NCBI GenBank assembly: GCA_014871385.1
Contig: CM026421.1
Span: forward strand, 20,326,865 to 20,390,864
Direction of reading: 5' to 3'
DNA length: 64,000 bases
Source of the DNA: Ceratodon purpureus
Taxonomy: Eukaryota; Streptophyta; Bryopsida; Pseudoditrichales; Ditrichaceae
Shown here piece by piece: positions 11,341-34,690 of the stretch. The stretch's first letter is position 1. The number at the start of each line of letters is the position of its first letter. The translations under genes and the position numbers were made by a program. The notes beneath the pieces are model-generated. The model was not told where the DNA came from. It saw only the letters and a list, made by a program, of their open reading frames with translations, and searched no databases.

Positions 11341-11347
11341 TGACAAT

Positions 11348-15170: not shown

Positions 15171-15692
15171 CTATTTGTCCTCTTCCCTAGGATACGCATA
15201 TCTAACAGTTCGTCCCGGGGTGCCATCGCCAGCGGGAAAATATGACATGACCTGTTTACGCCGGCCTTCTACTCTGGTTGCCTCCAAGGCCGGAGCAGGT
15301 AGTCGACTTGCCTCGGGACGTGTTAGATCTCTTACTATTGTGTCATGCAAGGTAAGCATGAGCTGCGCGCGGGATGGTGTGTACAACCGATCGGAAACCT
15401 TGCTCTCAGTCAGCAGAGGATCGTGGATTCTCGGGTCTTCGTTAGGGGTCAATTCACGAGGACTTTGTGGCGGTGTGTGGAAGACCTCATCTTTGGTATC
15501 CATGAAGGACTGCCTCTCCGCCTCTACCTCCTCAATAACCATCGACCGCTTTAGTGTCTGCCACACGCCGTTGCTCACTCGGTGGTACCTACGATCTTCT
15601 TCGCTCGAACTAACGTTGCTTTTCAACCCATGATCCTTCAGCTGTTCACGACCTACTTTACTGCAATGACCTGAAGACGACTTCTGCGACAT
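15171..15692 (-). CDS. Unrecognised charged protein, 173 aa
   Basis: Open frame from ATG at 15692 (MSQKSSSG) to a stop at 15171. The product is rich in Glu, Asp, Arg and Ser, nearly without Cys, with a Pro-rich stretch HTPPQSPREL near residue 78 that has proline-directed phosphosite patterns. No domain recognised. I prefer this strand over the 230-codon ORF on the other strand, whose Ser/Leu/Arg-rich composition is typical of antisense reading. It lies between the F-box-like gene and the RING gene, all on the minus strand. Confidence 0.45.
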   Translation of the reverse strand: MSQKSSSGHCSKVGREQLKDHGLKSNVSSSEEDRRYHRVSNGVWQTLKRSMVIEEVEAERQSFMDTKDEVFHTPPQSPRELTPNEDPRIHDPLLTESKVSDRLYTPSRAQLMLTLHDTIVRDLTRPEASRLPAPALEATRVEGRRKQVMSYFPAGDGTPGRTVRYAYPREEDK

Positions 15693-17152
15693 TCTCGCAG
15701 TGTCAAAAAATTCTAGCAACTGCGGCCGATAATTAGAGCGGACAGTCTATAACCAACGTTTAAGGGCAACATGAGCGATACAGCCAGCTGGAGAGTCACT
15801 GTGTTGGTGGTGCCTTTGTCGGTTTCTCATGTGCAACCAGTGCAAGTCGGCTCTGTCACCGAACTGCATGAATATCTTAACAGGTGTGTGATCGATTATT
15901 GTGCATGTCAGGGAATCGCTGCACTGGTTTCTAACTCGCAGAGATTAGGTGTAGCACATGCAAAATTCTAGATATCTTAGAACAAAGAATCATTCCAGAA
16001 GATAATGTCTCCAGAGATCATCATCTTATCTTTGTAATAGCAAGTAAATGTTAATCAAAACTTGGACCCCGGAGAGCACTGAAATTACGTAAATACTAGG
16101 ATTTTTAAAGCAAACGAATCAAATAATGACTATATTCTTTAGGGCTCTTTTCTAGGGGGATAGATTCGATCAAGTAATTGTTCATCTCAATTTTATTTTC
16201 AGGGCTATTTTAGTACTTGGCAGTTTCGTCTGATTTTGCAATGACGTGTTGAAAACGAAAAAATGAGGAATGCTGTTTTGGGTCCTGTTTAGAAGGTCGT
16301 TTATGAATGTGCTGTGTTAGCCTTCTTTCCAGAAACTAAACTTATTAAATAGATTCTATGATAAATCATAGGCAAGCGGTAAGCGAAGCAGGCGAACGGG
16401 GCAGATAACAGACTCAGCGAATACAGCAGACCAACCTATCTAACATGGCTTTGAAAAACAACACCCGAATGATGAGCTGAATTGTGCCTAAGGAAATAGA
16501 TTTCTTAATGTAGATTTAAATTGGAAGTACCATTTGGCGCCAGCGCAACTTGACCGCCTATGTGATTCATGAGGCACTTGGTGATACAGATAGTACATGG
16601 CGTGGTCACAGAATTTATTGTTCGACTTCTGATTGTTTCACAGAATTTGATTGCAGGCGTGCTTAGGATAGGACAATATTTCAAGTTTGTTAATCTTCAT
16701 TATACTAGTTGATGAGTACATCTTGGGGTGACCTTCAGATTGTAACGTTCGAGGTTTCTGTAAGTACAATTCCCGATGGTTGAGTCAATATCTCTCCAGA
16801 GATAAGTAAATGGTAATAGAGTTCCATATTGAAGTAGATCTACCACTTGGCGCCAGCGCTACTCGACCGCATATAAAAATACATGCACTTGGATATGGAA
16901 TATGAAATTGACTTGATCCAAAATTAGAATTCGCTTACAAATTTTCTTAGCTAACTAATACATCTGTATACTGATTCGATTTCCCAAAACCGGTACAAAA
17001 ATTACATGCTAGGTCGAAGCATGTCAAGATAATGTTCCAAGGACCTGACAAAATTGGTTTTGCTATTTATAATCTGAACTATATTTCTGATAATCAGTGA
17101 GCATCCACACTACGCATACTCTGCTTAATTCAACTGGACTAATCGTGGAAGT
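15693..17152. other. Spacer with two motif copies in a diverged duplication
   Basis: Near-perfect motifs at 16535-16548 and 16848-16861 sit in similar surroundings: both are preceded by GAAGTA-type sequence, followed by a CGACCGC or TGACCGC box and then by GCACTTGG about 40 bp later. A 313-bp offset joins the two, so this is an old local duplication. No gene seen. Confidence 0.55.
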
Positions 17153-18231
17153 TCAGGGATGAACTCTGCGGCGCTTTGTCAGGGAAGTCGGGGGAGAATC
17201 TGCATTCTCGATTGCATCCCCATCCTGACTCTCTTCTTGAGTCGCTGTGAGATTAAAGTTGCTGCTTGGACTGTCATTGTCTGTTAATACAACCGAACAG
17301 AACGGAGACATCAGAATTTAAAGTAAGATAGCTATATGAATGATTTTAATAAACAACGATTCGCACCATTGCTGGAGCGACCTGACGAAGATGTATCACT
17401 TGAACCATCCGTGCTCGATTCCGACTCAACAAATGAAGGAAAGCCGAAGTTACGCAGCCAGCAAGGTGGGAAACGCTCTCTGCAGGACTGTCGAGAGCAA
17501 TCTGGATAAATTGCGACTCTTATTGCCAGACAAAATAAATGATAAAAATGACCACAGGGGGAGATCTGCACTTCATTGGCAGGAAAGCCGTGGTCGCACA
17601 TTTCGCATCTCCGACCATCATCCGCTGCAGGTACTCTCGGATGGTGTATCCGCCGTGACAGCTTGAGGTGAGTATGCTGGGCGTAGCTATTGAGTGTCTC
17701 CAGCACCAAGTCGTTCTCCGCCTGGAGCTCGTCTAGGACCTCTCGAAGGTACGATGTCTCGCGCTCAGCCTCTAGCAGGAGTGCAAGTAGTGAGTTGAAC
17801 TCATTGAAGCTAGGGTGGTTGCGCAAATTAGTCTCAGCGCGAGAGCGATCCTGTCTGAGCTGAAACATCTTCTCTCGGAGGTCAATCAAATTTGCTCTAG
17901 TCTCACACCGAATCTCCGGGTCGATCGTGGTTGCATCGATACTCTCCGCTTGCGTGATAGCGTCCTTTACAGAGTTAGCACATAGCTCATACCGGCTATG
18001 TACATCACGGAGAATTTCCTCAAGCTCGGCTACCTCACTACAACCTTTTCCTTCCTCTGGAAGGGATGGACTTTCTAGTTTGAACTCCTCCCTCAACATT
18101 CTCTCCCGTACTTCTCCGAGGCTAAGGCTATTGCTCGCTTCATTCGCTAGGCGGCATTTATGTGCCAGAATTGCCGAGACTCTAGACGGGCGCGGACAAG
18201 GACTAACGTTCAGACGAGCTCCACTAGACAT
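17153..18231 (-). CDS. Coiled-coil RING-type zinc finger protein, 330 aa
   Basis: Exon 1 is 18231-17367 and exon 2 17280-17153; donor AATG|GTGCG and acceptor AACAG join in phase 1 to give 993 nt. Without this splice the frame ends soon after the donor, so the splice is inferred from the frame and from the coding look of exon 2. Residues of about 55-210 are heptad-like and charged (coiled coil). A RING-like finger follows at about residues 222-262: CEMC, then CGHFYHLFC, which fits the C-x-H-x2-H-x2-C core of RING-H2, then a less regular CSRQSC. A Ser-rich tail ends in KRRR, a likely nuclear signal. RING fingers usually make E3 ubiquitin ligases; the irregular last Cys pair leaves activity open. 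The start is the first ATG (MSSGARLNV). Motif copies lie 292 bp past the stop and 234 bp before the start. Confidence 0.7.
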
Positions 18232-18676
18232 GGCGAAACGCAAAGAAGGAACCTGAAATCGCGCTAGGTTTCACTCAAAATGTCAAGTGAATAAGAGAGC
18301 TCCACACAGTGTCGTACGCAAACAGCAAGGAGTTTAGTAGATCTGAGATCAGAATACATAACACATTGCTTATATATGCATCGTTGTGTTAAAGAAGACG
18401 TTTGTCGATGTCAGTGCCGGAATTCAAAAACCCTTGAAGCCAAACTGAATGCAGATTGGAGAAGCGGCGCCGGCGCCAATCGCAAGCTCCAAGTAGTTAA
18501 ACCCATTATAGCTTATACGGACATAGTCAGATACATGGTATCTTCTCTGACTGTAAATAATCGCGAGATCCTCTTTGAGGGACTGCTGCATAATGAATCC
18601 CAGCAACGATAACGAGCAACGATATTATTCACCAAACGATAAATAACAATGCCGTTTCGTTCATGTCGATGATTAA

Positions 18677-18690
18677 TGGCGCCGGCGCCA
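18677..18690. promoter_or_regulatory. Palindrome motif, perfect copy (centre CG)
   Basis: TGGCGC-CG-GCGCCA between the RING gene and the transposase gene. Confidence 0.7.
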
Positions 18691-19257
18691 TTCTTGTTTA
18701 AAATTGAGTATATCGAATTTCATTTTTGTTCTATTTGTACCACTTCGTCACACTTTGGAGGAATCTTATTCGTATGCTTAAGTCGTGTATTAAAATATGT
18801 TGAAATTTGCAATATTGTCTTGTCGCAATTTCAAAAGGATGCATTTCCTCTCATGAACACAGTGTGATGTTTATCAAGCCCCATTTCATTATATTACGAG
18901 TTTCTCATTTGCATTTGGTCCTTGGGGTTTACAGTTTGTTCTAAGAATTCACAATATTAGGAATAGAATCGTGCCACCCGTGGGATTGTACACAGTCATT
19001 TGCTATATGTACTAGATTTTCCCAATATTAGGAATAGATTGATCCTATCCGAGTCATAGCACACAGTCATGACGTACTGAGTAAAGGACAGAATAATTCT
19101 CAGATATTGTTAATGATCATCATGAGATATATATGAAAAGGATATGACAATTTTGATAGGGTAAAACATAATATATTTGAACTATAAATACGACCATTTT
19201 CATATCAAATAAAATTAGATTGAGTTGAAATCGCCTATAGTCATTCTGATCCTCAGT

Positions 19258-19271
19258 TGGCGCCCGCGCCA
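19258..19271. promoter_or_regulatory. Palindrome motif, perfect copy (centre CC)
   Basis: TGGCGC-CC-GCGCCA, 40 bp downstream of the transposase stop codon, so probably inside its 3' UTR. Confidence 0.75.
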
Positions 19272-19310
19272 TAACTAAGTTCTGAAGATGTACATGAATG
19301 GACATGTAAT

Positions 19311-22300
19311 CTATCGCGAGTTCCTCCAAGTTCTCATAATATCGTCAACCTCCACCCAACTCAAAGTGGCTTGATGAGGCCTCTCATCATGCAGTGGTAG
19401 TCCGACTACAACATTGTAAACATGGTACATATGTTTACACGTCAGAAAGTATTGACCATTTTTGCTATCAGCCACACTGCTGACAAAAAATGGGCAATTG
19501 CACCCAGGGGTGTCACTGATGGTGACTATATAGCTAACGGGTTTGTTTGTTGTTCGGGATATGGTGTTCAAGCCAAATCGGTAAGAACCTGACGCTGGTT
19601 CCTCATCCAGGAGGCGGACTTGGGCAGTCATCATTAGACCCTCCTTCCTTCGAGACTCGCCTGCATCGGTCAAGGTCCGTCTGTTCACCCTTTTGCCACC
19701 GCGCCGTGGAGGTCTCTTCAAAGGGTCGAGAAGGAAATTCTGAACTGGATTACTCACGCCAGCCTGATATGGATGAGATCTACCACTCTGGGGTACGTCT
19801 GTCTCGACTAGGGTAAAACCCCCGTTCCCAAGCTTAGCAGCTTCTTCCGTTGATAACTTTGTTCCTATCTCAACTGGCCAAATTGTGGGCAGTGCTGGGG
19901 GCTTACCGCCTCGAAGCAGCTGGACATGATCAGTCGCCACACACCCTCGCACAGTGGCCCCACAAAACCAATAAATCTGAAAACTTTTTTTATATCGCTG
20001 CTCCATAGTTCCGTAAAAACTAGGACCTGCATGGCTAGCTTCTGGCCGAGGCTTTATATTGCGCGAACAACTCTCCCATTGTCCATTGCGATAAATCACC
20101 GCTGAACATCTGGGATTTTCATTCGGTAGGCATCTCCGAATAGCCCAGTCCTTGTGATCTGTCTCTTTCTCGAGAACAAGCTGACCAAACTGGAAAGCAG
20201 GTGAGTCGTGCACGCCATGTCTTGGATTAGGATATACAGTTTGATGTGATGACGGGAGCGGTGACCAGGTGTCGTCAATTGGAACCATCGGAGGGGGTGT
20301 AATGTTGTGAAATCCATTGAAAACATCAGGGCTGCCCTGATAACCAGATGTTGGTCCACGAGCTTGGCTTTGGTACGGAGTGGATGGACTGCTGAGTCTT
20401 GTACCAGGAATATTGAATGAGTAATCACTGGCTAGGGCTCGATATTGCTCCGTAGCCCGAAGTGGGATCGATTCTGGAAATCGAAAGGACTCTGACTGTC
20501 CATAGTCATCATCACTTCGAGTGTGAGAGGTCTCTTCAAGCGAACGTTCATTGTTAGTAGACATGTACTGAGTTGGAGACGTAGGAAATCTCGAATGGTA
20601 TGGTTGGGATCGGTTGTGATTCATGGTCATTGGGACCTGTGTTGGCGCCGGCGCCATGACCTCTTCCTGAAACGACTCGAATGCACGGGTTGGCCGATAT
20701 GAATTCGGGTGGTTAGTTGGCGCTGGCGCCATCTCAGAGGCGATGACATTGTCTCTAAGATGCTGATGTGAATCCTGCCGCAGATGACTCCTGTGCGCTT
20801 GAGGCGAGTCGAAAAGATTCCTTTGAAATGTTTGTGGCGCAGATGGAGTCGCAAACGAGAATTCCGCCTGGGTGACCGGACCAGTATTATGATTCGACTC
20901 GACTCCTTCGAATCCTGTATTCCTCCTTCCCTGATCTTCCAAGTTCCGAAATCCTTGAGGTTGATGCCTGAGAGGGGGTCTAATGCTTCTGCTATCTTTA
21001 TCCGGTCTATGTGATCGGGCCATTTTTCGCCTTCCTGGGCGCGACTGGCATCTCACATTCTGGGTACGGTCCAAATCCCCTTCTAATCCTAAACCACGTG
21101 AGTGAAACTGAGTTCCTTCAACAGCTGCCTTAACGGCCATGGCGAAACGCTCTGGTTTATGAGACCTAGCTGCATTGCGCCACATTAATTCCGCCTTTGA
21201 TGGGCCAGTACCTCGCAAGAGTCCCTTTGATGCGGCCAAACAAAACTGTTGTTGTAGTAATGATCTCGTCATGTCCTCTGCACAGACGGTGTACAAATCC
21301 ATTTTAACTTTGAATCCGCTTGTTGATGTTGCCCACATGGAACTATGGACTGCTTCGCAAAGATTTGTGTTAGGTACCAATGCTTCTCGCTCAAGGTCAA
21401 GCTCGAGTTCATTGAGGTGGTGATATGCAAAGAGAGTGCGCCTGGCCATCCACCATGTCATCCAGGCCATCATGTTCCTGAGGTTGTCCTTGTGCACAGC
21501 TCCTGAGTTAGTCCAAAAATCCTCCAATTCAAACGCGATTTCGCGGAACTCCTCGTTTGTTGGAGCTGCAGCCCATCTTTTGCAGAGTTCTACATGGTGG
21601 GTGCGGTACTTCTCATGAACCCACTTGTTTGTATGATCACGAATACTTTGAACAAAATGGAAATAGCAGGTTCGCAGGATTGGGTCATTCGGATTCAGAA
21701 CTGGTTCCTCGTCCCCAACGTTGCCATCTAATCCCTCTGAGTGTCCAAAGACCTTTCTGACTGCGTTATAATTTGCTGGAGCGGCATCAGCCATAAACCC
21801 TCTGAACCTTGGACGAGGCTGACCACTATGAACTACCGTCTCTATCAGTAGCTCCCAAAACTTAACCTGGTTCTCAGTGTTTTCTAGTTTCATCTCACAT
21901 ACTGCAATTGTCAGTAGCCTCCCAAGGTTGTGGTCATATACGTGCGCAGCCATTGTTGTCCACAAATTCACACGTTTGATGTGATCAAACATGATGAAGG
22001 AATCCTTAAGATCCCCCGATTGCATCCTTTTTACAATGGCAACACCACTTCCAATACCCACGGTAGACATCTTGAACACAAATTTAATGCCATTATGAGA
22101 CTGTCCTGGAAAATGGCTATCTTGGATATAGCTATAACGAGAGAATTTCTTCAAGGCAAAAATACAGCGCTCCTGGTCTGACCTGAATTTTGTGACGACG
22201 TATTTGACCCGTCCCTTGTCGTGGTATGGTGGTGCAGTTTCGAGAATCTCATTGAGCTGCGATTCTGTCAAAAGCTGTTGTTCTTCAACGGTGGTCGAGT

Positions 22301-23696
22301 TCATAATCAAATCCAGGAAGTTTCTGTGCGCGCAACGGAACCCGACCCAGCCGGGAGCATCCATGAGCCAAGGATTCAGATCAAGGTACTTCTGAATGGT
22401 GATTGTCATGTTGGCATATGCTTCTCGACTTCTTCCAGGCGGTGATGGATGGGAATGCTTGCCAGTATGCACCACCGCTCGAGTATAGAGGTCAGATTCG
22501 TGGTGAACTACCCAAAGAGTACTTGAACACTGCGAGACACAGGTAGGAGTCCACCGGCAAAACGAGCACCTCCAGTCACCATCGATTGGAAAGTTTCCGG
22601 CTTTAGGCTTGGCCTGGCACCGGCCTTCCCAATAAAGCGTGTTTGGTATCCCATGAAGAGTGAGATGGCCGCACTCTGGACTTCTGCATATGAATGAACC
22701 ACTACAGAACGATTTCCGGACTCGGAGGCCTGCATCTTCTATGAGGTTTGACTTGTAACTATTGGACTTAACCCAAGGATGACCATCAAAAGATATATCT
22801 GTAGAGATTGTATCATCGTCTATCACTGGTGGGAGTTCAAATATACAATTCCCATCATAATCCATTGGAAGATAGTTGCATTTGGTCCTTTGAAAATCAG
22901 CAAACGGCAAGAATGCTAATTCCCCTGTACATCCACGGTTTGCCAAACCCATTAAAAGTGGTAGAATAGATCGACTACCTGGGATTTGAGCGACTTCCTC
23001 CACCTCGTTTGGCGCATTCGGTCTTGGCATGCTTGGGTACGATATGTCCTCCATGACGATGCCCTCAAAGCTGTCAATAATGGGTGTCGGGGCACAGGCA
23101 GCATCGTCAAATGTTTGTCCCACTACATTAATCAGTGGTGATTCGATCCTATGTCCAGTCGATGGTGCGAATCCCTCATCAGCTGGAGCTAATATCGTGT
23201 CTCGAGAAGAATGGCCACCAGGAGTTGGTGTATCGTCAATACGTTCAATTGGATAGTCTTCCAGCCTGTTAGGAGCTTGTGCAACCGTAGATGTACCTGG
23301 TAACACTCTGCGTGGGGACGACATCTGGCTCCTTGTGCTAGTCGTGTCCACAGATGTGTCGTCTAGCTCAATTAGTGGCGTCGGCGTCCTTGCCACTATT
23401 CCAGCAGCACTCAGAGGCCGTGAAGGACCTGGATTTTTCTCACCAAACACAATGAACGATGCACCATCAAGCACTGGCAGATTAAATCGGGACTGGCCTT
23501 CTATCTCCTCTGGCCAATAGTCCCCCCTCACCGCGCCCTGCAAATCTATTCTCTTAACGTGGACTGTGCCCACTTGCAGCCCGAAGGCCAGAACGAGTTC
23601 CAACTCTGGGATCTCGATGTCTGCATCAGATGACGAATATTTCAAATGAGAGAGCTCTCCCGCTAAACGAAAGATCATCTTACTGGAATGCGCCAT
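19311..23696 (-). CDS. MULE-type transposase with GRF and SWIM fingers, 1461 aa
   Basis: One uninterrupted frame from ATG at 23696 (MAHSSKM) to a stop at 19311. Order of parts: an acidic N-terminal region; a Cys/His-rich DNA-binding-like region at about residues 335-430 (WRCSFCRW and HTGKHSH, FLYWCH/WRKY-like); a DDE core with D near 570 (FIMFDHIKRV), D near 636 (MADAAPANYNAV) followed by CYFHFVQS, and E near 780 (NLCEAVHSSM); a long disordered linker; a GRF-like finger near 1190-1240 (CSAVIYRNGQWESC); and a SWIM finger near 1398-1420 (CNCPFF, then CKH). This is the Mutator superfamily plan, where such proteins cut and join transposon ends. Two perfect palindromes fall inside the linker and read as MAPAP. 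No terminal inverted repeats were found by eye, so it may be an autonomous element, part of a larger one, or a domesticated gene. It looks intact. Confidence 0.85.
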   Translation of the reverse strand: MAHSSKMIFRLAGELSHLKYSSSDADIEIPELELVLAFGLQVGTVHVKRIDLQGAVRGDYWPEEIEGQSRFNLPVLDGASFIVFGEKNPGPSRPLSAAGIVARTPTPLIELDDTSVDTTSTRSQMSSPRRVLPGTSTVAQAPNRLEDYPIERIDDTPTPGGHSSRDTILAPADEGFAPSTGHRIESPLINVVGQTFDDAACAPTPIIDSFEGIVMEDISYPSMPRPNAPNEVEEVAQIPGSRSILPLLMGLANRGCTGELAFLPFADFQRTKCNYLPMDYDGNCIFELPPVIDDDTISTDISFDGHPWVKSNSYKSNLIEDAGLRVRKSFCSGSFICRSPECGHLTLHGIPNTLYWEGRCQAKPKAGNFPIDGDWRCSFCRWTPTCVSQCSSTLWVVHHESDLYTRAVVHTGKHSHPSPPGRSREAYANMTITIQKYLDLNPWLMDAPGWVGFRCAHRNFLDLIMNSTTVEEQQLLTESQLNEILETAPPYHDKGRVKYVVTKFRSDQERCIFALKKFSRYSYIQDSHFPGQSHNGIKFVFKMSTVGIGSGVAIVKRMQSGDLKDSFIMFDHIKRVNLWTTMAAHVYDHNLGRLLTIAVCEMKLENTENQVKFWELLIETVVHSGQPRPRFRGFMADAAPANYNAVRKVFGHSEGLDGNVGDEEPVLNPNDPILRTCYFHFVQSIRDHTNKWVHEKYRTHHVELCKRWAAAPTNEEFREIAFELEDFWTNSGAVHKDNLRNMMAWMTWWMARRTLFAYHHLNELELDLEREALVPNTNLCEAVHSSMWATSTSGFKVKMDLYTVCAEDMTRSLLQQQFCLAASKGLLRGTGPSKAELMWRNAARSHKPERFAMAVKAAVEGTQFHSRGLGLEGDLDRTQNVRCQSRPGRRKMARSHRPDKDSRSIRPPLRHQPQGFRNLEDQGRRNTGFEGVESNHNTGPVTQAEFSFATPSAPQTFQRNLFDSPQAHRSHLRQDSHQHLRDNVIASEMAPAPTNHPNSYRPTRAFESFQEEVMAPAPTQVPMTMNHNRSQPYHSRFPTSPTQYMSTNNERSLEETSHTRSDDDYGQSESFRFPESIPLRATEQYRALASDYSFNIPGTRLSSPSTPYQSQARGPTSGYQGSPDVFNGFHNITPPPMVPIDDTWSPLPSSHQTVYPNPRHGVHDSPAFQFGQLVLEKETDHKDWAIRRCLPNENPRCSAVIYRNGQWESCSRNIKPRPEASHAGPSFYGTMEQRYKKSFQIYWFCGATVRGCVATDHVQLLRGGKPPALPTIWPVEIGTKLSTEEAAKLGNGGFTLVETDVPQSGRSHPYQAGVSNPVQNFLLDPLKRPPRRGGKRVNRRTLTDAGESRRKEGLMMTAQVRLLDEEPASGSYRFGLNTISRTTNKPVSYIVTISDTPGCNCPFFVSSVADSKNGQYFLTCKHMYHVYNVVVGLPLHDERPHQATLSWVEVDDIMRTWRNSR
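20643..20656. promoter_or_regulatory. Palindrome motif inside coding sequence (centre CG)
   Basis: TGGCGC-CG-GCGCCA within the disordered linker of the transposase, read as MAPAP on the minus strand. Confidence 0.7.
20718..20731. promoter_or_regulatory. Palindrome motif inside coding sequence (centre TG)
   Basis: TGGCGC-TG-GCGCCA, 75 bp from the previous copy and in the same reading frame, so the protein shows MAPAPT twice. Confidence 0.7.
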
Positions 23697-24261
23697 CTCA
23701 AAGCTACAGACTTCCAATTGCCGAGCAACTTGTTCCAATGGCAGTGGGCAGACCTCGATCTATTCACTCTGAGTAACACAACAGCTGTAAGTTGTAATTG
23801 ACATGATTCATTTCTGTTCAATCTTCTTTATAAAATCTAAATCGAGTCCGTTGGAATGGTTACAACGGGATCATTCACTTTTATTGCGGTGAATCAGTAA
23901 AGTGCTAATCAAACGGTCGATTACTTACGAATTAATCCATAGCCGTCAAAAGGAAGTAGACAATTTATGTATCAGCTGTAATACCTCAACAGTATTATTT
24001 AGCCGGCACCTATTCGTGCTCCAAAAGCGGATCTGAGTCATCGGCGGATGAGAAATGTGTTCCCAACGGATCTCTGTGGCGCCGATGGGACGTGAGGACA
24101 ATTCCAAATCTCGTATAAATAGAAGCTCTCCAGTTGACCATATCCTCACAGCGCCTTTACCTCTCTCTCGTGCCCTTCTGCTGCGTGTCATCCTCGTGTT
24201 CCATTATTAGTAGGCCACCAATATCTCGTGGACTTCCTCATAAGTTAGTTCAGTGGTCAAG
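23697..24261. promoter_or_regulatory. Divergent intergenic region between transposase and ParB/MTase genes
   Basis: This 565-bp space separates the starts of two divergent genes and should hold both promoters. On the minus strand a TATA-like TTTATAAAG-type sequence lies near 23828-23838, about 135 bp before the transposase ATG. The frame upstream of that ATG stays open to 23738 but has only a TTG start. No motif copy is present. Confidence 0.4.
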
Positions 24262-27200
24262 ATGATATCTGCGCCATCGTTCTTTGAAGGGCTTCTTTCT
24301 GGTTCTGCTGCTGGTAGGGGTTCGGGCACTGCATCGCTCGTAAGCATGGGGAAGAGTAAGCGCCTTGCGGAGTCGGACGGCAACAAGATCAAGAAGAAGC
24401 GAAAGGGGCCGGTTACGTTGTGGGTCGAGCAAGAGGTATGTCTTCCTGGCTTTCCTCTACCAATGTCGACTTTCTGGGTTATGCTTTTGGTAAATGGCGC
24501 TGGCGGCAATTCAAGTATTAGGGTATGGCTTCGACTGCAAATAACAAGACTGGTCTCTGCTCTAAACGAATGGGTTCGATTAGATTGTTGGGTGCAGTAT
24601 ATGAGCTTCACGGTTAGTGCGATATCGTTTATTTTTATGTGGGGTAGGAAGCTTGTGAATCACCTCTTATTTTGTCATTAATGGACCACACAGCTCTCAT
24701 CGGTCTGTCCTCACCTTGGCAGCGTTTGAGTCTTGTTGTATTGCCAAGATCTCGTTGTGATTTTCTTAATGATTTCATAATTTTCATTATTACTTGTCCA
24801 GTTCTACCAGCAATTTTATGTAGAGTATAGATTACATGTTTAACAGAGCCACAAGTCCGGTCACACCATTCCATCGTCTTTGTTCGGGTCAGATGGTGCC
24901 GGCGCGGGTAGGTTTTCCGACTTTCAGCAGGAGATTTCATTCAGATATAATTGGTCTTTTTTTCTTCAACTTGAGAGGAGTTTGATACGCAGACATGGTA
25001 ATGAAGTTATCAATTTTTGAGAAGCCGGCACTTGCAAAAAGGGTTTGCCGAATCTCTCGTTCAACCTGGGCCTGCGCGAATTGGAAGATTTCCCTGTTGT
25101 TATTCAGTCGACTCTAGTTTATTCTGTGGTTGATGTTCACCTAAGTTACTAATCTCGAATCGTCTTTCACAATCAACTGAAATTTTCAATATTGCCAAGA
25201 TTCTATTGTGATTGTTCCATGTCTGCCACGGATATCTGATTAACATGTGCTCTTGTATATGTTTCCGATATCTTGTTTGGTATCTAGTTTGGTCAGGTCA
25301 CATAAACCGCGGAGATCATTGCCTGGTCTTTGTTGCAGGCACATGGTGCCGGCGTGGGTTCGATATGGGTCCAATATTTTGAGCAATGAGGTGTACAGTG
25401 GGCTGGTATGGTCTTGGAATGTTTCGTATTTATAAGTCTTTGCCAGCTAGTGATATGTTATGAAATCAGGGATTTACCAACTAGGAAGCCTCGGTGTAAT
25501 CTCTTTGCTACGTGCTAAGATGTTGACTGAATGTGCTCCTCAGCAGTTCATAGGTACCAGACTCTAGTTGATTCTTTACGTAATCCCGTTGAGGGTGCCG
25601 GCGCGGTTCGTCCATGCGAGTGCTATTGATATTTGGATACGCTCTTCTTTTATTCGAACTTCTCACGGAATGGTTCATAGTATCAATAATTGCTATTTTA
25701 TTGGCCTGTTTTATTCTATCCTTTATTCTCGATATTTTCGTTTTCTTAGAAAATCCAATGCATTCAATCTTTCGATGCAGCACATTGTTCCTTTAAATTA
25801 GGGCCCCAGTATGGTGTCTGCTTAGTGTTTCTGTTTGGTTGCTGAGTGTTTCTTTTTGGTTGCTCAGAATGCAGACACAGGTCTCAGCGCTGCTCAACAA
25901 GACTGGGGCGAGATTGAGCCGGTCAACGACGACGATGGCTGTGAAGAGGCCATTGAACGGGGCAAAGACCCCAATCCATCTGTGACATCCTTCGAGAGCT
26001 TTCAAGAGAAATTGTTTAGCCAAGTCAACATCCGCAAACACTTGGAGATACGGAAGATAGTACCTGTGCGCCTTGAGATTCCGCTATGTAGGCTGAAACC
26101 AACATCATGGGTTCGACAAGCTCTTCCAGCGGATGTTCAGACAGTCTACGAAGGTTTCCATATCGGGAACTGGGGTACTAATTTTTGGGTTACTTGTTGT
26201 GGGAGCCCTGGAAAGTTTCCAGGGGAAGGATTCGAGGACTTGGGCCGGTGGCAAGCACTTTCTGATGAATTTGATGCTGAACTGAAGAGTCTTTGCGATA
26301 CCGACCCAGAGAACAAAGGTATGTATGAGAGGATTATTGGTCAGTACGTCAATGTGTGGGATGGGAACCACCGTGCTCTTGCATGGATGCAGCACATAAA
26401 AGAGAACAACGGTGACCCCATCAAAGTAAGCTGCTTCGTCCTGAACGATACTGAAGCAGATCGTGGCTGGATTTCCAACTTTATGCGTGATATAAATGAG
26501 TAAGTGTCGATGAGTTTGTTTATCCTGATGACTTGGTTGTTTCATTTCGCGATTTTAGGATCATCTCCTGATATGTATCATGTTTTCCGGTTCAACTTTG
26601 AATCCTATCTTTTTAATCTGTTTTATGTTTGAATTCCTGACCGTAGTGAAATGTGTTTGTGCCAGTGGAACCTCGAACACCACTGTTAAAAAGCAGCTGG
26701 CCCATGTCCTTTATGAAGTTATGCAAATCGCGAAGAGGGATCCGAAGGAGTATAGCCACTATTTCTCTGATGACGAGATGATAAGAATCAATGATGTTTG
26801 CAAAGGGCGCTGGTACAACATGACGTGCGATGCCGTCACTGAAGTATATTTCAAGGTGTGTTTTATCATTGTAATTTGTTTAATTGCGTATTGTTGATGG
26901 CTCTTTGGATATGCAACCTATGATTTTGGAGCATATCTGCTGCTTTTAGAATAAGCCGTGCGCGATTTCGTGATTTCTTTCGTACATCAGTCGGTCTCCG
27001 AAGAACATTCTCCCAGCGGACATGCCATCTTCTCAATTACAGACTTACTGTCTAATTGTCGTGTTTCTTGATCGATTCGTTCAGTAGAACAATTAGTTCC
27101 CTTATCAGCTTCTTGTATCTATTCTGAACCTGAATTCTTCACCTGAGGGGCAAATGGTGCCGGCGCCAGCAGCTCCTGAAGCTGGAGCGGTTCTAAAACT

Positions 27201-30200
27201 CGTCAGTTCTCATCATTTCTGTTCACTACAGTGTTTTAGTCTAATTTTTCTATCAGAACATTGCGCGTTTCGCAACTCTGGAGAACTTCATTTAGTGTCT
27301 GCTATATCTGGATGGCTGTACAGTTCGCAATTTTGATATCTTAAACATTATGTTCACTGTTTGCCTCGTTCTTTTAGCAACTAGTTGCGTTGATAGCGTT
27401 TGTAGCTAGGTTCCCAGATATCTTTAATGCTAGACATCGTTTTCGAAGTTGCTAAGCAGTCAGTTACTTTACTTTGCGGTTAAATTTTAACTTACTGAAG
27501 ATGGGAACCATTAACTTGGCATGCTGATCCACTATCAGTTGTTTCCATGTCTCTGCATCTCAACTAATGGCTACTGTCCTGTAATTACTAGCGTCCGATC
27601 AAGAAGGATCATCCATGGGTTAGTTTTGTTAGCTGTGATCTGGATGTTTTTTGAGATCCTGACGGTTTTATATCTGCTTACGCAGCGTGAGATAACTCTG
27701 GCTGAGCGAGAAGGAGTGAAGGCTTTGAAGGAAGAAGTAAAAAATCCGACGCCTAAGCAGATTGAGGAAGCTAAGTTTGAAGGCGCCCATTCTACAAGAA
27801 AGGAGAAGTTAGACTATATGAAGAAAATCTTCAGGCTATGCAATCCTAAATACCATCCCCATCTTGCTGATGAACTCGATGCTCACACGCGGGCACCTCA
27901 AAGGAAGACAGGTGCGATGACTATTGACAATCTTGGCATTCTTGTTGGGGCACAAGGGGTGGACATTCATAGGGTATTGAAGCTCTGGAATGGGACCACC
28001 GCTGATAAAGAACGGTACCACTTCCCCGACTTGGATTTTACCAGGGCTGCATTTCAAAAGTGGTTGAATCGTAGAGCTTGGTGGGAGCAGGTAGGCCCCA
28101 GTCATTTCGCTCAAACCGATGTACCACTGGATGGATTTACTTCTCCTACTCCGAATATCGTTTGTAATATGTTGAGTTCATCAATAATTGTTTTTTTCTT
28201 TTTTGCGTGAAGTTATAGCGATGTTAACATGATTAGTTAGATCTGGGATGTGTAGGGTGATTGCTAGATATGTGCTTTGATTTCGCAGAATGATGAGATT
28301 TTCGCATTGTGATGCAGATGGGCACCCGGGCATTTGAAATTCTCTCGGAATTGGTGTCGAAATCAAAACCAGAGAAGGGAGTTGGGATTGTTCGAGCTGC
28401 AGATTTACGTCCCCATTTTGAGGAGTATTTTGACAAGGTTATGGTTTATGGTTTTCACAACTTTTTCCCTGAGATTTTTATTCCTGACGGAGGGCCCGTT
28501 CGGCACAAGTGCTGGAAGGATCAGATTACCTACGACTTGGGCGAGAAGGCTGTCCGTCGGTTTGTAATGAGATTTGTTCGCTGGGTTTGCGAGACCACAA
28601 GATTGCTGCCAAGGGAGAGCGGGGATATCAGTAAGTTTCCCGTATTCCAGGACTGGCTCCGGATCTCCGAGGATGGGGTTTATACCAAGGAGCAGATATC
28701 GAAACTTGATCCACCGCATCTTAAAGGGCTTGGTTGGTATATCGAGAACGTTCCTGATGTAGAGGGCTTTCTGGATGTGCATGATGAAGCCCTTCTTGGC
28801 TGCGTTCTGAAGGAGATTGAAGCACTTGAATCAGCATCATTCTTGGAAAAGGCAGAGGCTCTCGACGCCACACTTGAAGAGATAAAAGAACTCGTGCAGT
28901 CGAAGACCGACATGGAGTCAGGAGATAGCGACACGGTAGTTCCATCCTCTACACTGCTTTCTGCGTTATCGGGTAGGCAAAACAAAGTGTACGTTCCTAT
29001 ATCTAACTCTTGGACTTCCGTCGCTCATTACGTTCCCGTAATGTTTCATGAGCTGCAGGAAATGATTGCCTCCAAAACCGGGAAGGAAGTCCAGAGTCAT
29101 CAATCGCAGGTTCAGGATGGTAGTGGCAGTATTCCAGGTGCTATATCGGATGTTGAGGGTGTGAATGCCCACCCTTCAGTTCCCAAACCGCGCAATTCGG
29201 AAAGTGGTAGCGATGCTCAGGAGGGTCGCAGTGGTGGTCACCTGCATAACTTAAGACCAAAGAAGATTTCGCAAGAGGTCCCGGTTGCTGATGACCTTCA
29301 TCAAAACGTCTCGGAGATTGGCTCTTCTCAGCGCAAGACATCCTCAAAAACTGGGAAGAAGTTACAGAAAACGTCGTTGCCGGGGAAATACGAAGCGCTC
29401 AAGATCGAAGGCGTCGCGCCGACTGTCAAGTTATCGATGAACTTTGCGTTTGATAAATTTGTCGAGGGAATGAAGCAATCAGACTTTAATTCATTCTTGG
29501 GCGCTATTAAGGAGGTATTTTTATTTTATTTTTTTCTTTCTTTTGGGAGAAGCAGGTTTTTTCCAAGTCATCTTAAATATCAATCTGGTTTGGTTTCGAA
29601 AAGTTCAGTAATCACCTTGAGTCTGAGTTATTTAACTCCTTCGATTATTTAGCTCGTATCAATCACTATTCCTTAGAGTTCCTTCGTATTGCAACTCCAA
29701 CAATGTATCAGAACATTCCAGGTCGCTAGTTAAGGTCTGTGCACATTCCAGGCCACGGCGCTGGCGTCAGTTCCCTCTTCGAAGCATGTTTTTCTGAGTC
29801 ATTTGCCCAACCTTATTTGTTTTGCTTAGTGGAACTTTGGTTATCTATTTTCCTTCTTGGATTTTGGAGTGTATGTAGCAAGTTATCTTCTTCTATGAGT
29901 TGGCGCCGGCGTCTTTCGCAGTTATGCTTGGTCATGACCTACCAAATCTCTATTATTGAGGTGGCAAGTCAGTTCGCGTGCATTCAGGATTTTGTTTTCC
30001 AAATCTGCTTATTGCTTTTCTATCCACATTGTTTTCATTAAGCATCTTGATACAGAGAACAGCTTGCTACGATACTGACTGCGATTATGAAGGTGACGTG
30101 GACAAATACCGTTAGGAAATCATTCGACTTCTCACTGGGCATAGGTGGCGCCGGCGCCAACTGGGATTCCCTTAGGAATCCAAGTACTATTAATGTCAGA

Positions 30201-31466
30201 ATGTATTTAGATGAATGGACAGTATGTACCGTAGACTACCTAGCCTTGGTTTTCAATTGCATCTTAAGTTGACTGGTGGACTGTGCCAATTTGGAATTCA
30301 GTCGACCTCTTAATGTTCAAGGTTGGCGCCGGCGCCAACTGAGAATTTAGTTTACCTTCTAATATTTTTTTCTATTTTGTTATACTTGTAGATCAATGGA
30401 GGACGGCTCCGGCAGCATAATAGAGTATGGAGCCCACATTGTGTCGACCTGATTCTCTGCGACACGCCGGATAATAGCGAAGTACCTGATGTAACTGTCA
30501 ATGGAAGATCTGAGACGCCGCCTTGGAACATGGTTAAGCGAACCACATTTCCGGCCATATTCCATGTTGCGGAAGCCGTACTAGCGGACTCGGGATTTAT
30601 TCTGTTATTCGTTCCTGCGGAGGAGCAACCAACGTTGATGTCCCCGGTCTGGGCTAGCGACTGGGAATGTATGCGGACCTTTTATGTGATCAACCACAGG
30701 CCATTTTCGCCCCTCTGGGTACATCTTCTCATTTTGTGTCCTTTACTTAATATATGTCTAATTCGTTTTTAGCTCATTCCGTTTTGCCGAACTTGGATTC
30801 CTCACTGAAGTGCGTTTTGTTTGTTGACTTCAGAAGCGGCTCTTCAAAGCTAAGGTGCTAAGGCGAAAATCTATGAGCCACATCAAATTCCAATTTAACG
30901 AAATTGCAAGCAAGGTCATGGATTGGAATCCCGAATCGTCCGATGTGCTTGAGAATGTTGTGACGGATGATAATCTACTTCGCTGCGAGGAAACTGTGTC
31001 GTATCGGGGCTCAAAACAGAAGTCACCTGCTTTCATGGAAACTATGATAGAAATCTGTACTGGAAAAGGGAGCGCCGTTCTCGACTTGACAGGAGGAATT
31101 GGTAAGGCTATCCATAGTGAAATCAAACTATAAACCGAGAATGGGTGAGCATTTGATTGATTTTAACATTTTCTATAATCATGACAAATATGGGCTGATG
31201 AGTTCGTGATGCTGCTGTTGGTCATGACAGGATCATCTGTCCGGGCCTGTGAGTTAAGCGGCAGACATGTACTCGCCCTGGAGGCGGACGAGGCTGCATA
31301 CAACATGTGTCTCAATGAATTCCCAGTGACACTCGCCGCGGACAGGGGAATCGAGGACAGTCGCCTGCTAACCTTGCATCAGCACTTCGCCGAGCTGGAC
31401 GCTCAGTTTTCCCATCCTACGCCACAACCGGCCCTCAGCGGTAGTTCGAATGGAATAGCTATCTAA
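24262..31466 (+). CDS. ParB-like / DNA methyltransferase-like fusion protein, eight exons, 1142 aa
   Basis: Exons: 24262-24435, 25868-26499, 26666-26855, 27686-28090, 28318-29514, 30392-30718, 30834-31101, 31231-31466. All introns are GT..AG and the joined frame is 3429 nt without a stop. Exon 1 has a bipartite nuclear-signal pattern (KSKR...KIKKKRK). Residues near 219-230 read VWDGNHRALAW, the DGxHR signature of the ParB/sulfiredoxin-like fold. The centre (about 270-870) is unrecognised and ends in a basic disordered part. The C-terminus follows the order of a beta-class N4/N6 DNA methyltransferase: VDLILCDTPDN near 883-894 in the place of the catalytic (D/N/S)PP(Y/F/W) motif, then AVLADSGFILLFV, then VLDLTGGIGSS near 1057-1067 (SAM-binding motif I) and GRHVLALEAD (motif II). 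ParB-like plus methylase fusions are known from phages and bacteria. The altered catalytic motif suggests lost or changed catalysis. Decayed palindromes crowd introns 1 and 5. Confidence 0.8.
30146..30159. promoter_or_regulatory. Palindrome motif, perfect copy in intron 5
   Basis: TGGCGC-CG-GCGCCA in the 877-bp intron 5 of the ParB/MTase gene, with two weaker copies at 29756 and 29901. Confidence 0.7.
30324..30337. promoter_or_regulatory. Palindrome motif, perfect copy in intron 5
   Basis: TGGCGC-CG-GCGCCA, extended by GT and AC to an 18-bp perfect palindrome, 55 bp before the start of exon 6. Confidence 0.7.
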
Positions 31467-31820
31467 GAGACGATTTCCGAAATGAATTGTTTAGTACGGT
31501 TTAACGTAGTCGCATATCAGACCTATTCGCTCAAATGATATTAGTGAACAAGGCTATTTGCTCGAATGACTTTATTTGCACTGTATCTGTTATCTTTAAA
31601 TCTATAAGTTATATACACATTCAGTCAAATTCAATTTCCAGTTCATTGGTATCTCAATGTTTCATTTGCCCATTAATGTCCCATCGATGTCCCATTCATG
31701 TCCTACGGCATACCATTGAAAGCTTCTCACAAGCAAAGCTGACTACTCCTCAAGGTCTGTGTCATTCACTAGTCCTCAAAGTCTGTGTCACTCAGTAGTC
31801 CTCAAAGTCTGTGTCACTCA
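31467..31820. repeat. Convergent intergenic spacer with 26-bp minisatellite
   Basis: Between the stops of two convergent genes. A tandem repeat of about 26 bp (TAGTCCTCAAAGTCTGTGTC plus six bases) with about four copies spans 31742-31850 and runs into the 3' end of the minus-strand ORF at 31821. On the minus strand each copy encodes a variant of SDT-D-ED followed by a stop, so the repeat seems to have grown from the gene's own last codons. Confidence 0.75.
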
Positions 31821-32490
31821 CTAGTCCTCAAGGTCTGTGTCACTCACTATGTCAACCCAGAACTTTGAAATCATATCAAAGTGCATTACTGCATCACCTG
31901 ATTCTGAATCTGCTTGGATGCCTGGCTCCGCCGTTGCTGGGTTCGAAACGAAGTTAGTTCGCTCCACAGCCCGTTCGGTGGCAGACACGGGGATGCCCAT
32001 TCGTTCAGCAGTCTCCATGCTTGGTATCCAAGGTGCATTCGCTAGCGGTTGATTGAGTTGCGAATGCCACACACAGCTGGGTTCTGCAGAAGCACCGTTC
32101 AATTAGATTAACAAGACATCTGTACAAGCAGAGCTCAGCGATACCAAATAATGAATTCGAAATCATGTAGAGACACTATTCATAAAACAAGAATCCAGGT
32201 ACTTGAACAGCCGATACCAGACGTCCTTCTGCTTCTCGCTCTCTGTCTTGCTTCCCAGAGCAATCCATGGCGACTCCGTCGCTTCGGAGCCTTGCGCAAC
32301 CTTCGCCTGGGAGTGGCCATCTAACGAGACGGAGTTTATGCTCTAAAGACTGGCCTCTCACTTCTATGTTTATATTCACCAGATGTTTGGACTGCGTTGG
32401 GTTTTGAGTTATTGCAGTAAGTGCGAATGATCGTCTCCAAGATGCGCCGAAAGTAGGGCCTGCACCACTTCCAAGGATAACAACGCCCAT
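31821..32490 (-). CDS. Unrecognised small gene, two coding segments
   Basis: The first segment opens with ATG at 32490 (MGVVILGSGAGPTF) and stays open to about 32179. The second open segment covers 32088-31821 and ends in VSDTDLED. An acceptor ending in CTGCAG at 32089 precedes the second segment. To keep its long frame the donor must be in phase 1, for which GAAG|GTTGCG near 32304 is the best candidate seen; the stronger-looking CAA|GTACCT near 32201 would end after a few codons. The exon join is therefore unsettled, and these may be two separate ORFs. No domain is visible; the second segment is acidic. The gene runs towards the ParB/MTase gene and away from the one at 32869. Confidence 0.4.
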
Positions 32491-32868
32491 TATGATGGAT
32501 GCGCCAGTTTCAGATCTCGACTGTACATGTTGATGTTGTTTGGATCTTTGATATTTTCTTCCAGAATCTTAATGAGGAAAGCCATATATATATTGACATA
32601 GTTAACCAGCATTATTACCTGGACGTAGCATTAATAGTTGGTTGTTTGAATTTGCCCATGTATTTTTAATAATCCTCAGGGTATCACCACCTTTTGCTGC
32701 ATTGGTATATGACAGCTCGACGTCTTGGCTTATCATTAGTTCTACGTTGTGCTTTATCAATTTCTAGAACCTTGTTGAGAAATTTGCAAGTGTCTGGCCT
32801 TATCGCACCAGCGCCGTTCGTCCAGTCACTACCTGGTGCTATTTCGATTCAGGATACTCGTTTCTTCG

Positions 32869-33507
32869 ATGGCGGAGAAGCGCTCCACATGCTTTCCATC
32901 TGCATTGCTGGTGAGCTCAGCCCCTAGGGCTCCATCGTCGAATGGTCCGATACTTGATGCGTTAATGGCTGGATTTGCAACGAGGTGGGTTGATTGTATC
33001 CCGGGCGCTCAGATTGTCTCCGGTGAAGGCCAAGGTGATAGTAGCGACTCCGATTTCGAACCGAATTATGATTCCATTGTGCCAAATACTTCCTTGAGTT
33101 CTCGATGGTTTCGATCACTATCCTCCGGTAGATTGATGAAGCTACTAGCTGAGATTCTTCCTGTGTTAGAGCCATGCCCTGAGGAGACGTTCTCTTGGAC
33201 ATCGATCTGCGATGGAGTTTGCGCCGATAAGTTTCCTTATCATCCTCACTTCATTTTGATTCGTGGAGGGAGTTTTGGGCCAGTTTCCGACCAAGTATCG
33301 CTCTTCTTGGATTCTAGTTGGGAATCGCTGCCCGCAATGCAGGTCCTCCTTCCAAGGCGGGTGAGAGGAGGCCTCCGTATGGAAGTTCTCGATTTCTGGC
33401 AGCTTGACCGGGTGGAGAAGCGCTGGATCCACCGGGGTACAGTGAGATATTTGGTAACTGGCAACAACCGCTGGGAGGAACTTGAGCTCCAGCTCACTCA
33501 CACATAA
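32869..33507 (+). CDS. Unrecognised protein, 212 aa
   Basis: Open frame from ATG at 32869 in good plant start context (CGATGGCGG) to a stop at 33507; it remains open 33 bp upstream of that ATG. The product has an acidic segment near residues 60-72 (GEGQGDSSDSDFEPNY) and a globular-looking C-terminal half rich in Trp, Leu and Arg. No known domain recognised. A perfect palindrome lies 225 bp past the stop and another 412 bp past it; after these the motif disappears from the window. Confidence 0.55.
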   Translation: MAEKRSTCFPSALLVSSAPRAPSSNGPILDALMAGFATRWVDCIPGAQIVSGEGQGDSSDSDFEPNYDSIVPNTSLSSRWFRSLSSGRLMKLLAEILPVLEPCPEETFSWTSICDGVCADKFPYHPHFILIRGGSFGPVSDQVSLFLDSSWESLPAMQVLLPRRVRGGLRMEVLDFWQLDRVEKRWIHRGTVRYLVTGNNRWEELELQLTHT

Positions 33508-33731
33508 ATGGACGACTGATCGACTAGAAGGATCCTGCATTCGATCTCTTCCTTTGGTGCCTAGTTTGTCTTAGTTATATTTGTTGGTTATGTTTAGATC
33601 AGATTTTTTTTTGCCATTATTTATATCTGATCTGTCGTGACACTCACCCCCGGTTCTATAAGATTTTTATCTTAGTCGCTTAAGCCGTTGTTGTTGCTCG
33701 TAGATTTTATTTCTCGGGCTACATTTCCGAG

Positions 33732-33745
33732 TGGCGCTGGCGCCA
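33732..33745. promoter_or_regulatory. Palindrome motif, perfect copy (centre TG)
   Basis: TGGCGC-TG-GCGCCA, 225 bp past the stop codon at 33507. Confidence 0.7.
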
Positions 33746-33918
33746 ATGTCGTTCCTTGCGTGCCTTATTCAGAAATATATCTGCTGTTCTGATGGTATAC
33801 TTGGTTGGGATATTTCAATATATTGTTCCGTGAAATCGATTGCCGATTTTTTTTCGAGGAATGATGTTCGTGCTTACTTGGCAGCGCTGAAGGTGCCATG
33901 TTGTCTTGCTTTTGCATT

Positions 33919-33932
33919 TGGCGCCGGCGCCA
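33919..33932. promoter_or_regulatory. Palindrome motif, perfect copy in a 20-bp palindrome
   Basis: The flanks extend the site to a perfect 20-bp palindrome, ATTTGGCGCCGGCGCCAAAT (33916-33935), which contains TTTGGCGC in both orientations. This also fits the E2F consensus TTTSSCGC. Last copy in the window. Confidence 0.7.
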
Positions 33933-34690
33933 AATGGTTATTTAATACCGAAGCTTTTATTTTGATTCTGCACTGCATGAGCTGATTTGATTCGATCTAG
34001 TCGTTAACGCTTTTATTATTGGTACCATGCGAACTCAATATTGTATTAATCTCGGGAGGCTATGTGCTTGTATGTGTCTCTATCTGTTTTCAATTAAATT
34101 CTGTTTGTTTCTCCACGACATTTGCGCACTTGGGATCTGAGCAATATGTGTACACTTATTCTCTGCAGTCTAATTGATTCATTCAGTCTATCATCGGATA
34201 CACTATCCAACTTTTCACTCGTTTGGTGGATAATCTGATTTCTACTGTTTTGTGAATGCCTTGTTTGTCGTTTATTCTAATCTCACCTTCTGTACATCAG
34301 TTATAAGTTCCATGCTTAACCGTAGCGGGACGTATAAGTGTAACCGAGTATGTATATACGTATTTTGTACTGGATGAGATATTTGTGTACAAGAGCTTTT
34401 CATCCTCATGGTATTCGACTGTATACATACTCGGTTTGCACAGGTATTTTTCATTTAGTCATTGACGAATGTCCAATGTCGTCTGCTTTTTCTTTCGCAC
34501 CACGTGTTGGTTCTGACATGCGAACTGGCTGGTGCCAGGTCTACGCGCACTCCGAGTGGCACACTCCGAAACTCTCATCCCTTCAATTCCGCTGCATGTG
34601 CAGTGGGGTTACGTTAACTTTGTTGGTCTCTCTCACATGCCTTGTCGCTGAGGAGCGTTTACATTTACATGGTGGCCCGTGTTTTTAAAA

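Follow-up and report, generated by a model that had tools for sequence, protein, structure and literature searches.

A predicted ParB-fold and methylase-like fusion gene carried by a giant DNA transposon of the moss Ceratodon purpureus

Introduction

The escape of large transposons from silencing is understood in detail for few systems. In the VANDAL21 element, VANC21 binds the motif YAGTATTAY in introns, intergenic regions and terminal non-coding parts (PMC5735166). Fusions of a ParB-CTPase fold with an N6_N4 methylase have been reported from phages (Kaljevic et al. 2025, PMC12704722), in a paper whose main text does not contain the words plant, moss or fung. Fungal DNA transposons encoding TET/JBP dioxygenases have also been described (PMC12730594); ParB and moss are absent from the main text of that report.

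In this study, a stretch of 64,000 nucleotides from Ceratodon purpureus (contig CM026421.1), called the window below, was analyzed computationally. It contains a gene that joins a ParB-like and a methylase-like domain. All positions refer to the window.

Results and Discussion

Structure and conservation of the fusion gene

24262..31466, + strand: ParB-like/methylase-like fusion gene, 8 exons, 1141 aa (script, diverged copies, public Ceratodon protein)
25868..26499, + strand: exon 2, ParB/sulfiredoxin-fold domain with the box VWDGNHRA (predicted structure)
26666..28090, + strand: exons 3-4, conserved stretch following the ParB domain (pN 0.15-0.20 vs pS 0.72-0.94)
28318..29514, + strand: exon 5, fast-evolving (pN 0.35-0.42)
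30392..31466, + strand: exons 6-8, beta-order amino-methylase-like domain (Pfam, PHROG, motif order, pN/pS)

A preliminary description of this DNA had joined eight exons in frame into 1142 codons, and this structure was confirmed. The exons were located on the + strand at 24262-24435, 25868-26499, 26666-26855, 27686-28090, 28318-29514, 30392-30718, 30837-31101 (or 30834-31101) and 31231-31466. All introns were GT-AG, internal stops were absent, and the reading frame encoded 1141 aa plus a stop; use of the acceptor at 30834 adds one codon. The motifs VWDGNHRALAW, VDLILCDTPDN and VLDLTGGIG were all found at the positions given earlier.

Copies were aligned by a spliced aligner written for the present analysis, with the fusion protein of the window as query. 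Recovery of exons 2-8 from the window was a program check only, because the query was the window's own protein. The real support for the gene model came from seven diverged copies (L038-L044), which had an identical seven-segment layout of exons 2-8 without stops. The aligner gave stop-free results for 16 of 17 loci, a set that includes all seven diverged copies, which were hand-chosen. The public Ceratodon purpureus protein M758_11G066700 (P0001, 1084 aa) showed 98% identity over 94% of the fusion protein. It used the acceptor at 30834, and its first exon differed from that drawn in the preliminary description. The latter version of exon 1 is probably real, since it aligned in two other copies (L012+L036 and L026+L037). 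Exon 1 contains a basic stretch, and exon 5 appeared by eye to be basic and of low complexity near its end.

For the ParB part, for exons 3-4 and for residues 867-1085, comparison with the seven diverged copies gave a pS of 0.72-0.98 and a pN of 0.15-0.20. The fusion gene is therefore not a product of chance, and the substitution pattern indicated strong purifying selection on these diverged copies.

The giant transposon

1..34581, no strand: the giant element's right part; its left terminus falls beyond the window
13766..14409, - strand: two conserved element ORF pieces (73% and 53% identity in an independent site cluster)
17335..18270, - strand: RING-like coiled-coil ORF (relatives in L058 and, at 27% identity, in the independent site cluster)
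19314..23759, - strand: Mutator-like transposase ORF, open, 1482 codons stop to stop (relatives in further elements)
34556..34581, no strand: right terminus of the element, GTGGCACACTCCGAAACTCTCATCCC (sharp homology end between copies)
34582..34590, no strand: 9-bp target site duplication TTCAATTCC (C1), partner beside a left terminus outside the window

The assembly has 39 places with the fusion gene, spread over ten contigs (34 counted by hand, plus five). The right terminus GTGGCACACTCCGAAACTCTCATCCC occurred at 32 places genome-wide at up to 3 mismatches, and at 19 of these, exon 5 of a gene copy lay 4.7-5.4 kb before the terminus (compared by hand); beyond this terminus, the flanks were unrelated between copies. 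The left terminus was defined from two copies. Two clean copies, on C4 and C8, measured 52,534 bp with the 9-bp duplication AAATATTGA and 62,665 bp with the 9-bp duplication CCTTGGGCA, respectively. The terminal inverted repeats were imperfect, matching by eye at 17 of 27 positions and at 13 of 15 in the core.

The transposase ORF lies head-to-head with the fusion gene. Its relatives had the same place and orientation in four of four further elements and were open as far as fetched. We take it to have a zinc-finger-like N-terminal part, a DDE-like core and a SWIM-like C-terminal end. No Pfam transposase model matched any of the five ORFs scanned, and none of 3979 candidates reached E<=1 in a protein search with the transposase core. 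Ten other element ORFs gave no Pfam match above cut-off, and the Pfam RING match of the RING-like ORF was weak. The target duplication of MULEs is reported as 8-11 bp (PMC6446971). It was 9 bp at C4, C8 and C1, where the pair TTCAATTCC spans two separately assembled stretches. The element is thus probably Mutator-like, judged by duplication length, terminal repeats and the presumed transposase motifs.

A tandem duplication on C1, where two right ends lie 45,985 bp apart, was considered and rejected. The C1 stretches were read as a misjoin because the first is followed by the same flanking sequence as the C4 copy. On C1 the part adjoining the window thus looks misjoined, and one of the 39 gene places may be spurious.

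These results indicated that the fusion gene is an accessory gene inside a giant multi-copy moss DNA transposon. The preliminary description had instead proposed a nuclear host gene captured from a phage or bacterium. Splicing, the public gene model and the basic stretch in exon 1 would suit such a capture; however, the gene recurs many times as part of a mobile element, with 19 copies beside the terminus, and all four copies looked at adjoin the transposase. The element structure contradicts this reading, which is now scarcely tenable, and copy number together with element structure ruled out a host gene captured once.

Relatives of the fusion protein

Full-length and C-terminal protein searches found the Ceratodon protein alone (for the full-length search, among the best 8000 candidates scored). 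Three viral-contig scans gave no relative. Phage matches to the methylase half were weak (best E 2e-4, 25% identity), and the ParB half gave nothing convincing against phage (two ParB exons) or viral contigs, leaving a direct phage origin unsupported. Plasmid matches were also weak, with E 0.09 and up among the matches listed. PDB sequence searches returned no match, and a literature search on Ceratodon and ParB found nothing.

The ParB-like domain

Structure prediction gave a ParB/sulfiredoxin fold in model residues 67-210, corresponding to about residues 125-268 of the protein. The fold proposed from the VWDGNHRALAW box was thus borne out by the model, in which exon 2 is predicted to form a ParB/sulfiredoxin (ParB-CTPase) fold. 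In profile searches, PHROG matched a ParB-like partition protein for 9 of the 13 members, weakly (best E 0.084), and ranked an unnamed PHROG higher in 7 members (E 0.004). Pfam gave no ParB for this part, with weak matches such as TehB (E 0.0088 in 3 members), and the PDB search by sequence gave no ParB. Canonical, parS-binding ParB works with a ParA partner and has an HTH following the ParB domain, a position matched here by exons 3-4.

The methylase-like domain

A relationship of the C-terminal part to the methylase family was supported. Pfam PF01555 matched residues 1034-1088 with E 4.6e-5 and 23.9 bits, under the curated cut-off of 26.7, and the best PHROG DNA methyltransferase match had E 8.5e-6. 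The motifs were CDTPDN in the IV slot, GSKQKSPAF for X and DLTGGIGSS for I, in the expected order IV, X, I. The last 55 or so residues of the fusion protein were looser (pN 0.32-0.43).

The catalytic motif of beta-class N4/N6 amino-methyltransferases is (D/N/S)-x-P-(Y/F/W), and the fusion protein departs from it, with aspartate in place of the aromatic residue. CDTPDN was kept in 25 of 27 loci showing the motif IV slot; the variants were L021 and L024, both copies with stops. Two phage methylases, examined out of 127 phage records matched, had CDLPY where the moss protein has CDTPD, in an alignment of motif IV that scored low (2.4 and 0.5 bits) and rests on the surrounding match. The fusion protein keeps the SAM motif and has lost the catalytic aromatic residue, and the comparison supports the changed or lost activity suspected earlier.

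An active methylase might still mark the palindromes described below, for example with N4-methylcytosine, as a self/non-self label like those of phages. N4-methylcytosine has been reported from bdelloid rotifers as an epigenetic mark (PMC8885841), and the SAM motif, domain order and strong purifying selection are compatible with activity. The CDTPDN of 25 of the 27 loci, in the place of the CDLPY of the two phage enzymes, and the lack of adenine in the palindrome's 12-bp core count against it, and we regard active marking as improbable.

Palindromic sites in the element

11349..33931 (further copies at 445, 576, 2149 and 2354), no strand: palindrome array, wTGGCGCCGGCGCCAw (mismatch count, weight-matrix scan)
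20644..20730, no strand: two sites within the transposase ORF, translated as Met-Ala-Pro-Ala-Pro (frame reading)
29757..30336, no strand: four sites in intron 5 (identity among seven copies)

The palindrome TGGCGCCGGCGCCA had 25 matches at up to 2 mismatches where the window belongs to the element, against 0.28-0.3 expected; from 34.6 to 64 kb, outside the element, 0 were found against 0.1 expected. Genome-wide, 793 exact matches were counted and 0 for the reversed control. Among 50 listed exact sites, all on C1, 47 fell into four clusters and three were single. Three clusters hold the fusion gene; the fourth had none in the 6.9 kb fetched. A cluster picked by sites alone contained element genes. 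The seven diverged gene copies had 1 to 4 sites each, against 0-0.2 expected.

In intron 5, three sites were near-invariant among the seven copies (0.95-0.98). The first site, at 0.83, was not above the best non-motif window (0.84), and the fourth was missing in one copy. Pairwise identity was 0.93 in the motif columns (38 of 48 invariant) and 0.58 elsewhere (140 of 762), the former value being inflated by the choice of columns by motif match. Within the fusion gene, the weight matrix scored nine intronic sites above 14 and no exonic ones; 7 of the 9 outscored the best of 30 shuffles (15.7). The pattern indicates that the palindrome is under constraint and kept inside diverged introns.

The sites were spread across the element, occupying introns, intergenic stretches and the transposase linker, and were not gathered at the ends. 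All 12 sites in the transposase linker shared one frame. Local repetition has multiplied some sites: intron 5 holds a 55-nt repeat, and the L058 transposase has a repeat of 26 residues, recognised by eye.

The palindromes may be accessory sites of the transposase, helping a transposon of such length to bend or to form a synapse, while the fusion protein does something else. The open transposase of the four further elements, its zinc-finger-like N-terminal part and the one-frame sites in its own linker suit this explanation. It is nevertheless rather unlikely, given the dispersal of the sites away from the ends, the nine sites in fusion-gene introns and a symmetry that suits a dimer such as ParB.

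The ParB fold, the numerous palindromic sites and the size above 50 kb could also point to an element that passes through an extrachromosomal form, perhaps derived from an endogenised DNA virus, and that has a partition or copy-control system of the ParB-parS type. The 9-bp duplications and the transposase-like ORF, however, speak for ordinary transposition, and no credible virus hallmark or ParA match was obtained among the element ORFs scanned with Pfam, where short exons could hide them. We consider such a partition system very improbable.

Proposed role of the fusion protein

Our tentative preference, held at somewhat below an even chance, is that the fusion protein serves the element that encodes it, either in self-recognition or anti-silencing, in the manner of VANC, or in mobilising more than 50 kb of DNA. 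The fusion protein would recognise the palindromes TGGCGCCGGCGCCA as self. Its ParB-fold part, probably with exons 3-4, would load at the palindrome like ParB at parS and cover the element, and the methylase-like part, with the SAM motif kept and the aromatic residue lost, may act as a module that binds DNA or SAM. The element would thereby be shielded from host silencing, as by VANC for VANDAL, or helped to mobilise. We infer that the fusion protein binds the palindrome and clamps with nucleotide, with anti-silencing as the outcome. In a more specific form, possible but doubtful, a ParB clamp with a dead methylase would load at dozens of palindromes over more than 50 kb, coating the element in the nucleus to block silencing or organise transposition. 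If true, this would to our knowledge be the first time that a clamp of this kind, together with its cognate sites, is described from the nucleus of a eukaryote.

The zinc-finger-like part of the transposase could bind the sites instead of the fusion protein. An anti-silencing argument from CpG depletion was tried and set aside, the signal being too weak and giving little support for a lack of methylation: CpG observed/expected was 0.78-1.1 in intact introns, 0.65-0.89 in broken copies, 0.68-0.85 in host flanks and 0.46-0.65 in the window outside the element.

The element family, the candidate recognition protein and the candidate sites are all defined from sequence, so that self-recognition can be tested by one binding assay. 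The ParB fold, known from bacterial segregation clamps, is extended to a eukaryotic mobile element, and a methylase fold is seen to be kept under selection after loss of the catalytic aromatic residue.

Comparison with known systems

VANC and the moss fusion protein are presumably unrelated in sequence. Like VANC of the Arabidopsis VANDAL elements (MULEs), the fusion protein is a non-transposase protein of a plant element that appears to be of Mutator type, and for both a short motif is enriched within introns and between genes of the element family concerned (PMC5735166). VANC targets, too, multiply through local repeats, as some moss sites do. The VANC motif is not palindromic, whereas the moss site is; the moss element exceeds 50 kb, and its protein combines ParB and methylase-like parts. 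Moss sites also occur in transposase coding sequence, while VANC21 motifs are mainly non-coding.

Unlike the ParB and Noc CTPase clamps with their parS and Noc-binding sites, the moss protein is eukaryotic, spliced and fused to a methylase-like domain, and it has the box DGNHRA. It shares with the phage fusions of PMC12704722 the two folds in one protein and the link to mobile elements; it differs from those described there in its 1141 aa, the long exons 3-5 between the domains, the altered motif IV and its location in a plant transposon. The fungal transposons with TET/JBP dioxygenases likewise carry a gene aimed at DNA modification, with a different enzyme fold (PMC12730594).

The Fusion Gene and Its Copies

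The ParB-like/methylase-like gene had been described as an in-frame join of eight exons, and this was borne out: the join gave 1141 aa without a stop, with GT-AG at all borders. With this protein as the query of a spliced aligner, the layout of exons 2–8 was recovered identically from seven diverged copies; its return from the window itself served only as a check of the program. Exon 1 as previously drawn was alignable in two other copies. The first exon of the closest public protein, M758_11G066700 of Ceratodon purpureus (98% identity, 94% of the query covered), differed from it.

The assembly was searched genome-wide (362 Mb, 151 contigs). Protein search and a VWDGNH pattern one base off the window sequence together located the gene at 39 places, 34 of them counted by hand and five additional. 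The largest contig, C6 (110.5 Mb), held 11 of the 34 and four of the five; judged from its size, it may be a sex chromosome. Six exon-5 matches contained stops, all on C6, one of which (C6:86647241, L042) turned out open in spliced alignment.

Among the 17 loci put through spliced alignment, 16 were stop-free, the exception being L014 with three stops. Synonymous change against the seven diverged copies was 0.72–0.98 per site. Nonsynonymous change per site came to 0.15–0.20 across the ParB part, exons 3–4, and residues 867–1085. Exon 5 (0.35–0.42) and the final ~55 residues (0.32–0.43) were less constrained.

Structure of the Element

Features of the putative Mutator-like element and its surroundings
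Window 1–34581: right part of the element; left terminus outside the window
Window 19314–23759, minus strand: 1482-codon transposase-like ORF
Window 24262–31466, plus strand: fusion gene, eight exons
Window 17335–18270; L052:5941–7128; L063:6094–6900 (fetched loci): RING-like coiled-coil protein family; cysteine pattern by eye, Pfam weak
Window 53756–54481, 59049–59774, 62467–63192; L046:2650–3486 (fetched locus): ORF family CGWLSHVHYVLER, by eye

In the 1482-codon ORF, placed head-to-head with the fusion gene, the D, D, C..H, and E residues of Mutator transposases could be recognised, and its end was SWIM-like, as in those enzymes. No Pfam transposase model matched the ORF or its relatives, and the core had no match in a large protein collection (E ≤ 1, 3979 candidates). 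Relatives had identical position and orientation in all four further elements; they were open throughout the fetched sequence, and two extended past it. The RING-like family carried by the elements is possibly ubiquitin-ligase cargo. Since the CGWLSHVHYVLER family has three copies beside the element and one within another element copy, it is probably another repeat that inserted into that element.

The right boundary at window 34581 was sharp in copy-versus-copy comparison, and the left boundary was derived from two copies. The termini formed an imperfect inverted repeat (17/27 positions, by eye). The 26-bp right terminus occurred at 32 genome places with up to three mismatches (control, 0). 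Nineteen of these lay 4.7–5.4 kb beyond exon 5 of some gene copy; at the other 13, no gene was detected by protein search, and these are possibly non-autonomous relatives. They were chiefly of the variant GGGAAGAGCGTTTTGGAGTGTGCCAC. Copies on C4 (52,534 bp) and C8 (62,665 bp) had the duplications AAATATTGA and CCTTGGGCA, respectively. On C1, one assembled stretch had TTCAATTCC as its left flank, matching the sequence that borders the window copy on its right, and the region between these flanks looks misjoined.

Window 3000–10000, inside the element, was AT-rich (GC 0.21–0.34) and is perhaps an insertion; no palindrome site lay between 2354 and 11349. Beside the element, window 51727–64000 contained long inverted repeats of 4151 nt, spaced 1775 nt and free of mismatches (100% complementary), and a second, overlapping pair (3420 nt) extending to the window's end, either a real palindrome or an assembly artefact. 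Degenerate direct repeats rich in GTGTGA/TCACAC lay at 56410–56982.

Distribution and Conservation of the Palindrome

With up to two mismatches, GGCGCCGGCGCC occurred 25 times in the window, always before 34 kb (0.28 expected); the consensus with flanks was (A/T)TGGCGCCGGCGCCA(A/T). The exact 14-mer occurred 793 times genome-wide (reversed control, 0). Among the 50 exact matches listed, all on C1, 47 fell in four clusters, three of which contain the fusion gene, and three were single. As a blind test, a cluster without a previously found fusion gene (C1 689–718 kb) was chosen by its sites. The 6.9 kb fetched there contained relatives of the element ORFs (identities of 73% and 53%; RING-like, 38% and 27%), and the fusion gene was absent from these 6.9 kb.

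The fusion gene had nine sites in introns and zero in exons, and the seven diverged copies had 1–4 sites apiece (expected 0–0.2). Four copies of the transposase ORF had 12 near-exact sites between them, every one in the same frame and reading (M/V)APAP; the sequence of a fifth copy is cut off ahead of the site-bearing part. In intron 5 of the seven copies, identity was 0.93 in motif columns versus 0.58 elsewhere, a contrast somewhat inflated because these columns were selected by motif match. Three of the four sites had identities of 0.95–0.98 and the first 0.83; the best non-motif window reached 0.84. Sites were carried by a 55-nt repeat in this intron and, by eye, by a 26-residue repeat in one transposase.

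Comparison with Known Systems

The fusion protein may bind the palindrome, clamp, and act against silencing. Through its ParB fold, binding at a site could plausibly be extended to cover a long stretch of DNA. For the methylase-like half, the preferred reading is a module that binds SAM or DNA. CpG statistics did not decide anti-silencing either way.

ParB–methylase fusions are indeed known from phages, as the preliminary description stated (PMC12704722), and transposons bearing epigenetic enzymes are also known (PMC12730594). Searches of a largely open-access literature turned up neither a plant transposon described as encoding a ParB-fold protein nor any earlier mention of the element palindrome. 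According to PMC5735166, VANC proteins bind short motifs in the introns, intergenic parts, and terminal parts of their own VANDAL family and lower DNA methylation. These motifs multiply via tandem repeats. The Arabidopsis VANDAL elements resemble the moss element in anatomy, and the moss sites, like VANC targets, ride on repeats, here the 55-nt and 26-residue ones.
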